Shown here: in pieces, positions 23,416 through 27,875 of the stretch
Numbering within the stretch: position 1 is the stretch's first letter
How the letters are laid out: each line of letters begins with the position of its first letter
Assembly: GCA_023954655.1 (NCBI GenBank)
Contig: JAGSHH010000004.1
Span: 1-40,980 of the forward strand
Origin: Colwelliaceae bacterium
Lineage (GTDB): Bacteria; Pseudomonadota; Gammaproteobacteria; Enterobacterales; Alteromonadaceae
Length of the DNA: 40,980 nt
Direction: 5' to 3'
The notes under the pieces: model-generated
What the model was told of the DNA's origin: nothing
Seen by the model: the letters and a program-made list of their open reading frames with translations, nothing else
Database searches by the model: none
Program-made: the position numbers and the translations under genes

Positions 23416-23832
23416 ATGTGGCGTAAATTAACATTCATAGTGTTTTTAATCGTATTAACTAAAGTAGTTAATGCATCGCCGATCTCTACAACAAACCATA
23501 ATGAATATTCACAACACCTCTCAATTTCTACTGAAAATCAAAACTATTCTATTGATGCATCTGAGGAGTCGAAAGAGTCATATAATATCCCTAGGTTTAA
23601 TCGGATTAATCCATCGATATTTACTGCAGAAATACAAATAACTCCTAATTATTTTTTGGAAATAGAGTTTTTTAAAGTAAAGCTAACACCAGCCTTATTT
23701 AAAAATTTAACAAACCCTCCTGTAAATATTCAGTGGTTTGAACAATTAAGTCATAATACTAATTCATCGCGACTTTCTGGTTGGAAAGATGGCAACATTC
23801 TATATTCATCCCGCACTAGATATCACAGTTAA
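23416..23832 (+). CDS. Candidate VemP-like secreted translation-arrest peptide upstream of secD/secF
   Basis: 138 aa; signal peptide MWRKLTFIVFLIVLTKVVNA|SP; C-terminus SRLSGWKDGNILYSSRTRYHS resembles the VemP arrest segment as recalled; immediately upstream of secDF paralog. Confidence 0.65.
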   Translation: MWRKLTFIVFLIVLTKVVNASPISTTNHNEYSQHLSISTENQNYSIDASEESKESYNIPRFNRINPSIFTAEIQITPNYFLEIEFFKVKLTPALFKNLTNPPVNIQWFEQLSHNTNSSRLSGWKDGNILYSSRTRYHS

Positions 23833-24010
23833 TTCATAACATCTCATAGATACAGTTCTATATAACTATCGTACTTTTGAACTGTTAAAGCAGCAATTTT
23901 ATTGTTCCAATTCTGATGATTAATCATCAGGTGTTTCCTGTATTTGAAATTTAGCCGTTGGCATAAACAAATTTAGGAATATTTTATTAGAGATTTTATG
24001 ATGAATTTAC
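23828..24010 (+). promoter_or_regulatory. Predicted mRNA structure sequestering the secD start region
   Basis: GUUAAUUCAU (23828-23837) pairs with AUGAAUUUAC (24001-24010) with one U-U mismatch; AUCUC (23841-23845) pairs with GAGAU (23990-23994). Confidence 0.45.
23913..23930. repeat. Perfect 18-nt palindrome in the vemP-like/secD intergenic region
   Basis: CTGATGATTAATCATCAG. Confidence 0.8.
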
Positions 24011-25827
24011 GTACACCGAAGCATGGTAGACATTTTAAATGGCAAAATATTGTCATTATTTTTATATTATTTTTTATGTTAATTAGTGCATTACCGAACT
24101 TTTATTCAGACAAAGTGAATATTAGTCTTATAAGTAGCAACATTTCAAAAGACCCAATTTCGATTCAAGATATTAATCATTTATTTACTGATAACAGTAT
24201 TTCTGTTGATGAAATTAAGTCATTTAAAAACACCACTAACATTACCTTAAGCAACAAAGATGATCAAAAGGCTGGGGAAAATCTATTAAGACAGATGTTT
24301 GAGAACAATTACACTATCAACAGTTCAATAGTGAATAATTCTCCAGCATGGTTAAAGTCGTTAAATGGTAAGCCTATAAAATTAGGCTTAGATTTGAGTG
24401 GAGGTGTACTTTTTGTTCTTGATGTTGATACTGACCAAGCACTTTCTGACAGAGTAAAAAGTATTACTTTAGAGATTAAGTCCTTAGCAATAGAAAAACG
24501 AATCAGATTAAAGAATATTGAACAAATAAATAACCACTCAATTGTCATTGCATTATCTGCAAAACAAAAATCTAACCAACAAATATTATTAAATATAAGT
24601 AAAAGCTATCCAGAATTAACTCATAAAAAATTAGATAAAAACAAAATGCTTTTAACTTATTCAGAAGAAAAACAAGTTGAATTTCGTCAAGAAACGATGA
24701 AACAAACACTTAAAACGATGAGAGGAAGAATTGAGGAGCTCGGTATAACTGAGGCCGTAACACAAAAACAAGGAAAAAATAGAATACGAATTGAGTTACC
24801 CGGTGTACATGACCCTGAAGAAGCAAAAAGAATTATAGGTGCTACAGCTTCATTAAATTTTTATCAATTGGCTGAAAATTCAAAAGCAGCGGGGGTTCTA
24901 CAAATGATTGATAAGAATGGCCGAAAACTAAGAATGAACAGTCAGGTTGTCTTTTCTGGTGATCATATTCATAACGCCCGAGCAGGTAAAGATGAACTAG
25001 GAATGCCATTAGTAAACCTTTCTTTAGATGCCGTGGGCGGTAAAAAAATGTCTGCGTTTACTAAGAAAAATATAGGTAAACCTATGGTGACCGTATTTTC
25101 AGAATACTATAGGAATGCCGATAATAAAATGATCAAGAAAAGCAAAGTGATCAATGTAGCTACTATTCAGCAACATTTGGGATCTCAATTTAGCATTACA
25201 AATATGTCGAGCTCTATTGAAGCTCAAGAGTTAGCACTTTTATTACGTGCTGGCTCATTAACTGCACCTGTAACGATTGTTAAACAAAGAAGCATAGAAG
25301 CAACCTTAGGTGTTGAAAATATAAATAATGGTTTTAAAGCGTTAGCTATAGGTATTTCTATTACTTTATTATTTATGGCTTTTTGGTATAGAGCTCTTGG
25401 AGTCATTGCTAATGTTGCATTGGCTCTGAATTTAGTGAGTTTACTCGGCTTGATGTCATTACTACCCGGTGCTGTTTTAACGCTTCCTGGGATAGCTGGT
25501 TTAGTTTTAACAGTAGGGATGGCGGTCGATACCAATGTGCTCATTTTTGAACGAATAAAAGAAGAACTTAAACGGGGCCGTCAATTACTGTATGCAATAG
25601 AAAATGGTTATAAGAGTGCATTTTCAACCATATTAGACGCCAATATAACCACTCTTATAACAGGGATTATTTTATATTCTATCGGCTATGGCCCTGTAAA
25701 AGGTTTTGCCATTATTTTATGTTTAGGAATATTAACTAGTATGTTTACAGGAGTGTTCGTTTCAAAGGCATTAACTAACTTTTCAATTCGTAAAAATAAA
25801 GCACAGTTTATTGGAGTAAAATTATGA
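23998..25827 (+). CDS. secD: Protein-export membrane protein SecD (second-type paralog)
   Basis: 'KLGLDLSGGVLFVLDVD', 'GLVLTVGMAVDTNVLIFERIKEEL'; not flanked by yajC/tgt/queA. Confidence 0.9.
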   Translation: MMNLRTPKHGRHFKWQNIVIIFILFFMLISALPNFYSDKVNISLISSNISKDPISIQDINHLFTDNSISVDEIKSFKNTTNITLSNKDDQKAGENLLRQMFENNYTINSSIVNNSPAWLKSLNGKPIKLGLDLSGGVLFVLDVDTDQALSDRVKSITLEIKSLAIEKRIRLKNIEQINNHSIVIALSAKQKSNQQILLNISKSYPELTHKKLDKNKMLLTYSEEKQVEFRQETMKQTLKTMRGRIEELGITEAVTQKQGKNRIRIELPGVHDPEEAKRIIGATASLNFYQLAENSKAAGVLQMIDKNGRKLRMNSQVVFSGDHIHNARAGKDELGMPLVNLSLDAVGGKKMSAFTKKNIGKPMVTVFSEYYRNADNKMIKKSKVINVATIQQHLGSQFSITNMSSSIEAQELALLLRAGSLTAPVTIVKQRSIEATLGVENINNGFKALAIGISITLLFMAFWYRALGVIANVALALNLVSLLGLMSLLPGAVLTLPGIAGLVLTVGMAVDTNVLIFERIKEELKRGRQLLYAIENGYKSAFSTILDANITTLITGIILYSIGYGPVKGFAIILCLGILTSMFTGVFVSKALTNFSIRKNKAQFIGVKL

Positions 25828-26744
25828 ATCAATTAATTTTAAAACAGGCAGAAAGCCTAACTAAGTTTCGCATTGTTAGTTTTTATTGTGCTGTAATATT
25901 TATTTTTATTGCTTTATTTGGATTAATTAACAACGGACTTAATCTGGGCTTAGACTTTACAGGAGGTTATTTAACAGAGTTTTCAACAGAAAATTCAATT
26001 TCTCAAGACAAAATGGAAGTATTATTGACGTCATTTTTACCTGACTCCTTTCACTTATCATCTGCAGATGATGGCACCCATTGGAGTGTTCAACAAATTG
26101 ATAATGATATTAGTCTTAAAGGCAAGTCATGGTTAACCGAGTTTTCTAATCAAAGTGGATTAACTATAAGCCCACAAGATGCTATTTACATTGGTAGTCA
26201 GGTTGGTGAAGAATTAATTAACCAGGGGGGATTAGCCTTGTTAACTGCAATGATTATTATATTGCTGTATTTATCTTTTCGATTTGAATGGCGGTTGGCT
26301 GCTGGTTCAGTCATTGCACTTTTTCATGATGTTATTATCGTGATCGGTATTTTTGCATGGTTTGAAATTCCATTTGATTTAACTATTTTAGCTAGCTTAT
26401 TAGCTATCATTGGGTATTCGTTAAATGACTCAATTATTGTTGGCGACAAAATACGTGAAATTATGAAAAGAAACAAAGATAAAGAGATAGATACCGTGAT
26501 AAATATTGCAATAAAAGCAACAATTGAAAGAACACTAATAACATCAGGTACTACACTTGCTACAATAATAGCTATATGGATATTTGCAGGAGACTCTTTA
26601 GCTGGATTTGCCATAGCTCTTTTTGCTGGAGTTTTAGTGGGTACATTTTCTTCAGTTGCTATTTCTGCAACAGTACCTCAATTACTTGGCCTAACTACAG
26701 ATTATTATGTCAAAAAAGAAGAAGAGGTTTGTCATTTACCTTAA
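25824..26744 (+). CDS. secF: Protein-export membrane protein SecF (second-type paralog)
   Basis: 'NLGLDFTGGYLTEF', 'IIGYSLNDSIIVGDKIRE'; 4-nt overlap with secD. Confidence 0.9.
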   Translation: MNQLILKQAESLTKFRIVSFYCAVIFIFIALFGLINNGLNLGLDFTGGYLTEFSTENSISQDKMEVLLTSFLPDSFHLSSADDGTHWSVQQIDNDISLKGKSWLTEFSNQSGLTISPQDAIYIGSQVGEELINQGGLALLTAMIIILLYLSFRFEWRLAAGSVIALFHDVIIVIGIFAWFEIPFDLTILASLLAIIGYSLNDSIIVGDKIREIMKRNKDKEIDTVINIAIKATIERTLITSGTTLATIIAIWIFAGDSLAGFAIALFAGVLVGTFSSVAISATVPQLLGLTTDYYVKKEEEVCHLP

Positions 26745-26812: not shown

Positions 26813-26844
26813 TAGTGTACCTACTCTACAGGGTAGGTACACTA
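26813..26844. repeat. Perfect 12-bp inverted repeat spanning the pfkA stop codon
   Basis: TAGTGTACCTAC - TCTACAGG - GTAGGTACACTA. Confidence 0.8.
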
Positions 26845-27875
26845 TGTACTGTTGTTTTTTCACTTTGAGGATCTGTTTGTTCTGTGAGTGCTAAAATATT
26901 TTCTTGAGCATCAATGAGTATTTGACTGACTTGTTTTTGATGTTTGATTGCTTCACTTAAAGGGATCAAACAAATTGAATTATTTTGTTCTGCTATCATC
27001 ACATTAGATTTATCTGTAGAGATCGCTTGAATTGCACTTACCCCCATCTTAGTAGCTAATATTCGATCTTTAGCGACAGGAGAGCCTCCTCTTTGAATAT
27101 ACCCTAAAGTACACAACGGGCAATCTATCCCTGTTTTTACTTTTAACTCATTAGCTAAGGCTTGACTACCATTTGGCCATAAATTTTCAGCTATAACGAT
27201 TAAATAACTTTTATGGTGATCGTTTTTAGCTTTAATTATTTGATTTGCGATTAAATCAATAGTCAACTTTTCATTTTTTTTATGAAAGTTTTCAAAAGAG
27301 ATTACCTGTTCTGCAGCACAAGATATACCAACATTGAAAGTAATATGACCGCTATTTCTTCCCATAAGTTCTACTAGAAAAACACGTTCAAAAGCATCTG
27401 CAGTATCACGAATTTTATCAATAGCTTCTATCGCAGTATTTACCGCTGTTGAAAACCCTATTGTGAAATCAGTGCCATCTACATCATTGTCAATGGTGCC
27501 AGGAATGCCTATCACTTGTCATTGCCATTGTTCCTGTATTGCCAATAAACCATTAAATGAGCCATCACCACCGATCACAATAAGTGCATCGATTTTATTT
27601 TTCATTAATACATTTACTGCTTGATCAATACCTTCGCTACTGTGCATTTCTTTACAACGGGCACTTTTTAATATTGTTCCACCACGGTGAATAATACTAT
27701 TGACATCATTTATGTGTAACTGAGTGACTTCGTTATTCAATAAGCCATTGTAACCATGAGAAAAACCAAAAATATTGTAGTGATATTTATGAGCGGCTAA
27801 GACTATTGCACGTAATGCTGCATTCATTCCTGGAGCATCACCACCACTGGTTAAAACAGCAATATTTTTAGTCAT
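26826..27875 (-). pseudogene. pfkA: 6-phosphofructokinase interrupted by one in-frame TGA (27521-27519)
   Basis: Two ORFs in the same frame; joined reads [40 protein letters not shown]. Confidence 0.85.

Follow-up and report, generated by a model that had tools for sequence, protein, structure and literature searches.

A leader-like open reading frame lies directly upstream of secD2 and secF2, and in the same direction, in a 40,980-nt stretch of Colwelliaceae DNA (the window, meaning the whole stretch analysed). This raises the question of whether the locus is a VemP-type secretion-monitor switch, in which a stall on the leader would free a masked secD2 start. VemP is a textbook force-sensing arrest peptide that has been studied in Vibrio. 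We consider that the window locus is such a switch with a probability of roughly 0.86. Its features are as follows.

23416–23832, forward strand: vemP-like leader ORF of 138 aa, with homologues before secD in nearly all Colwelliaceae-type loci
23770–23805, forward strand: arrest motif R119-LSG-WK-DG-N-IL-Y130, invariant in alignment A1
23821–23823, forward strand: inferred stall codon Y136 in the P site, at Trp+13, as for Q156 in V. alginolyticus VemP
23832–23839, forward strand: P1 5' arm (register A, ATTCAT, 23832–23837; register B, TCATAA, 23834–23839)
23841–23845, forward strand: second 5' arm, AUCUC, with pair probability 0.91–0.99 in the window and weak conservation
23852–23885, forward strand: internal hairpin ACAGTTC...GAACTGT, in the window fold only
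23912–23931, forward strand: internal hairpin TCTGATGATTAATCATCAGG, whose two sides are both changed in relatives
23990–23994, forward strand: GAGAT, the likely secD2 Shine-Dalgarno region and AUCUC partner, kept before the secD start in family loci
23996–24006, forward strand: P1 3' arm, over both candidate start codons (register B, 23996–24001; register A, 24001–24006)
23998–25827, forward strand: secD2 (NF009545/PRK12933 SecD, E 4e-231)
25824–26744, forward strand: secF2 (TIGR00966, E 1e-73)

The N-terminus of the leader (MWRKLTFIVFLIVLTKVVNASP; MWRKLTFIVFLIVLTKVVNA-SP) looks like a signal peptide when judged by eye; the C-terminus is RLSGWKDGNILYSSRTRYHS. Residues 119–130, RLSGWKDGNILY, match exactly the VemP consensus RxxxWKxxNxxY given in PMC10987492, and the motif columns are invariant in alignment A4 as well as A1. 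The motif Trp stands 15 residues before the stop, a spacing shared by 89 of the 122 homologues surveyed. Searches with the leader ORF returned no Pfam or NCBIfam family, and Rfam gave no match at E up to 1. The sole PDB match was the VemP nascent chain, along the motif stretch and at non-significant E values of 0.15 and 0.27; consistently, only the motif region aligned with V. alginolyticus VemP, with no significant similarity outside it. The window ORF translation has no RAPP/RGPP-like motif near its C-terminus. Nor does the leader carry the GIRAGP motif of SecM, and the gene that follows it is secD, not secA.

The window corresponds to contig C48 of a 3.0-Mb assembly that is 81% complete. 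A second secD, 42% identical and with an adjoining secF-like match, was found on contig C38, so the genome has a Vibrio-like set of two. The secD2 start is likelier to be the second ATG, at 24001, because several relatives retain that one alone. In one assembly (L033 / L048) the secD2 frame is broken soon after the start, with the leader and helix arms retained. Further along the window, a 6-phosphofructokinase-like gene (26826–27875, minus strand) is present as two ORFs with an in-frame stop at about 27519 between them, which reflects either a nonsense change or a sequencing error.

The first-pass annotation had proposed that the leader's stop region pairs with the secD start and that AUCUC pairs with GAGAU just upstream. 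The bases it named are correct (GTTAATTCAT at 23828–23837, ATGAATTTAC at 24001–24010, ATCTC at 23841–23845 and GAGAT at 23990–23994), and the pairing itself was confirmed: folding of the single sequence closes it, and RNAalifold and covariation across relatives support it. When 23780–24030 was folded alone, the closure formed, but with an unexceptional energy (z -0.78, with 37 of 200 shuffles doing as well), so chance can be excluded only by comparison with relatives. The hairpin at 23912–23931 also scores as terminator-like, without a clean T run.

The annotation had also fixed one register, TTCAT with ATGAA at 24001, and this is refined here. Two registers arise because of the tandem ATGATG at the secD start. 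The proposed one, register A, uses the second ATG and is favoured by most relatives, but at 37 °C its pair probabilities for the window sequence reach only 0.18–0.43. By minimum energy the window prefers register B, TCATAA (23834–23839) with TTATGA (23996–24001), because it is stacked on and continuous with AUCUC x GAGAU (probabilities 0.91–0.99). Directly after TTCAT, A replaces C in the window and in two relatives (L011 and L014); register B is the longer in these two relatives (9 versus 7 bp), and in the window it has 6 bp against 7 for register A. Whichever register forms, both secD start codons lie in or beside the helix. The AUCUC x GAGAU pairing is strongly predicted in the window but weakly conserved, with at least 4 bp in 11 of 36 relatives against 5.3 expected, and we did not retain it as an independently conserved helix given this weak support.

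A family-wide search yielded 30 secD2 loci. In the close family, the non-coding sequence that immediately follows the vemP stop keeps TTCAT(C), its position differing by one base between groups, and the secD start in 36 distinct relatives is the complementary (G)ATGAA. A perfect 7-bp complement lies within 14 nt of the stop in 19 of these 36 loci, whereas 0.022 would be expected. Without being given the helix, RNAalifold recovered this closure from 19 relatives, in which both sides carry A-U to G-C and C-G to U-A changes. Pairing holds in 90.0% of cells over 35 distinct arm pairs, against 24–56% in slid controls. The covariation that the annotation had named as a check was evident: 14 cells are changed on both sides versus 4.0 in shuffles (0/500 as many). 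Swapping arms between loci weakened the pairing, with 8/2000 swaps doing as well as the native arms. The shuffles leave relatedness in, yet the matched changes fall in several separate lineages: GTTCATC with GATGAAC (L025, L026 and L029), GTTCATTT with AAATGAAC (L027 and L028), AATTCATTA with TAATGAATT (L009) and ATTCATTA with TAATGAAT (L035). The arms persist across loop lengths of 125–522 nt. A good helix was missing at L017 and L022, both Colwelliaceae-type loci. Because matched changes keep it across many genera, we take the stop x start pairing to be real. Per-locus duplex energies against shuffles were too noisy for AU-rich arms and were replaced by profiles of contiguous pairs by position.

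VemP-like leaders were found in 58 of 395 genomes in an order-wide search, and a class-wide profile search detected VemP in only 2 of 369 genomes, each of which belongs to the same family as the window. Named genomes carrying the leader include Colwellia, Cognaticolwellia, Pseudocolwellia, Litorilituus, Thalassotalea, Thalassomonas, Aliikangiella, Shewanella and Vibrio. A Colwellia-type vemP-secD2 locus also occurs in NZ_JAGHQT010000019.1 (L047), titled Endozoicomonas sp. G2_1, a label that may be wrong. We then scanned each position along the leader for the best complement to its own secD initiation region at 93 loci from 12 clades. The clade-averaged complementarity peaked in 14-nt windows starting 2–4 nt before the end of the vemP stop (clade-balanced mean z 1.92; sd over offsets 0.38), and when secD starts were swapped between clades the observed score was never reached (0/2000 permutations). 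Arm pairs include TTCGTTCTC x GAGAACGAA (L078 and L141), TCTCTGTTA x TAACAGAGA (L066), TTTTCATCT x AGATGAAAA (L084), TTAATTTCAC x GTGAAATTAA (L113) and AGTTAATCTCA x TGAGATTAACT (L075). Most Vibrio relatives whose C-terminus resembles that of the reference VemP (e.g. RLSGWKETNAMYVALNSQFSA) have a stop x RBS duplex, as at L144 (-26.9 kcal/mol) and L162 (TAGACATCATT x GATGATGTTTA), so the rule also holds in the lineage where the mechanism was worked out. A stop-proximal arm is missing from two clades: one Vibrio group, with a weak signal near -20, and f2, with a helix at +24. The f2 loci (L092, L106, L109, L110, L112, L114, L115, L117, L120, L123 and L125) represent a different geometry, in which the stop (W+19) falls four codons beyond its usual position and the complementary arm follows about 24 nt downstream of it.

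These results support a model in which the bases of the vemP stop and those immediately following it would act as an anti-initiation arm, pairing across about 160 nt with the Shine-Dalgarno/start region and keeping secD2 closed; from the predicted folds and the covariation, the mRNA structure probably masks the secD2 initiation region. When the Sec channel fails to draw the leader peptide through, the ribosome would arrest about two codons before the stop and cover the arm, so that the secD2 start would become free and the spare SecDF pair would be made; export force would release the arrest. In V. alginolyticus VemP the stall places Q156 in the P site (PMC5449182). If, as assumed here, its footprint extends 16 nt counted from the first base in the P site, a ribosome that stalls on the equivalent codon, Y136, would cover the 5' arm to about 23836, and the arm would stay under it because the stop follows 15 residues after the motif Trp. 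The annotation's proposal that a stalled ribosome covers the 5' arm thus agrees with the motif spacing, but the freeing of the start region is predicted only in part. When the stall is modelled, the expected number of stop-arm pairs with the initiation region drops from 12.5 to 5.3 for the window at 37 °C; for the Colwelliaceae mean it drops from 6.0 to 1.3. The unpaired probability of the window initiation region rises from 0.30 to 0.46 at 37 °C and from 0.23 to 0.39 at 15 °C. The opening is predicted to be partial in the window because AUCUC x GAGAU, part of its preferred register, lies past the ribosome edge.

Other explanations for a helix between stop and start were weighed against the same data. 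Complementarity might have arisen by chance in an AT-rich intergenic region, and the ordinary folding energy of the window would fit this; however, it is contradicted by the 7-mer count (19/36 versus 0.022 expected), the covariation (0/500), the clade swap (0/2000) and RNAalifold, leaving chance an extremely improbable account. Another candidate is an RNA thermometer, in which an AU-rich stop x start helix would melt with temperature in a cold-adapted group and the leader peptide would matter little. The AU-richness of the helix, its position over the start codon and the fact that the relatives are Colwellia speak for it. Against it are the position of the arm, which is fixed with respect to both the arrest motif and the stop, the same geometry in Vibrio and Shewanella-type clades with G+C-richer arms, and the invariant arrest motif; we find it very unlikely.

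Plain translational coupling would dispense with regulated arrest altogether, since the helix would be opened by every ribosome that arrived at the vemP stop or terminated there. From the geometry, a terminating ribosome would cover the arm too, and in the uDF_RQH leader a premature stop brought expression below the arrest-defective level (PMC10987492). Coupling alone, however, does not need RxxxWKxxNxxY, which is near-invariant across clades with its Trp 14–19 residues upstream of the stop (15 in most), and we consider it very unlikely. The VemP-type reading is instead supported by the motif, by the conservation of a non-coding arm and by the way in which that arm tracks its own partner both within the family and between clades.

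The mechanism and the family are known from Vibrio (PMC5449182, PMC7793623, PMC11470409). As here, V. alginolyticus VemP is a leader with the same arrest motif directly before secD2-secF2, in a genome with two secDF pairs, and an mRNA structure masks the secD2 initiation region (PMC5449182, PMC7793623). The window differs in that the start codon itself is the main target, the arm sequence is different, and the loop in this family is 125–522 nt long with internal hairpins. Two further systems described in PMC10987492 are alike in outline. The uDF_RQH_Enterobacterales leader of Alteromonas naphthalenivorans is likewise an arrest peptide upstream of secDF2, with a stem-loop that partly masks the secDF2 SD, but it arrests by an RGPP motif, which the window ORF lacks. 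Escherichia coli SecM is likewise an exported leader whose arrest opens RNA over the SD of the next gene, secA, but its motif, FxxxxWIxxxxGIRAGP, and its target gene differ from those of the window. None of the papers in the literature collection searched was found to deal with VemP in Colwellia or Shewanella. Fujiwara et al. (PMC10987492) list 339 VemP-like sequences, which may include these genera, and we make no claim to a first discovery of VemP there. The mechanism being known, what is added here is the covariation evidence, the correction of the register and the stop-proximal arm as a general rule.

VemP-like leaders were also observed before genes outside the Sec machinery. S41-type peptidase genes lie directly downstream at L122 (606–1574), L126 (707–1693) and L128, identified by Pfam match for the former two and by resemblance for L128. 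On the minus strand at L091, a VemP-like leader precedes a VTT-domain (DedA-type) ORF (496–1167) by 330 nt. Post-stop arms of 9–13 nt are complementary to the RBS/start of the peptidase gene at the three S41 loci (TAAACCTTATTGA x TTAATAAGGTTTA at L126, GTTCACCTT x AAGGTGAAT at L122) or of the L091 gene, where the post-stop ATCCGGTGT matches ACACCGGAT at the gene start. In Vibrio, VemP-like ORFs lie upstream of a Na/Ca-exchanger-type gene at L069, L071 and L072 (Pfam match for L069 and L072), and the species include Vibrio inusitatus and V. comitans; at L072, from an uncultured Vibrio, the exchanger is followed by a VTT-domain (DedA-type) gene. No clear post-stop arm was seen at these three exchanger loci; the intergenic regions of L069 and L071 contain a tandem ACGTCAGT repeat. 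A Pseudohongiella-labelled assembly has a MacB/FtsX-type permease (L068, 2922–5294) after a VemP-like ORF, with a weak post-stop arm. We give about even odds to the idea that VemP-type leaders form a portable cassette of arrest peptide plus post-stop antisense arm that has been re-aimed at non-Sec genes.

This analysis places VemP in Colwellia, Thalassotalea, Thalassomonas, Shewanella, Aliikangiella and others, and gives a simple general rule: the anti-initiation arm immediately follows the leader stop, with constant spacing to the arrest motif. The natural compensatory variants of the arms suit reporter tests, and the rule predicts the targets of unknown leaders, genes outside the Sec machinery included.
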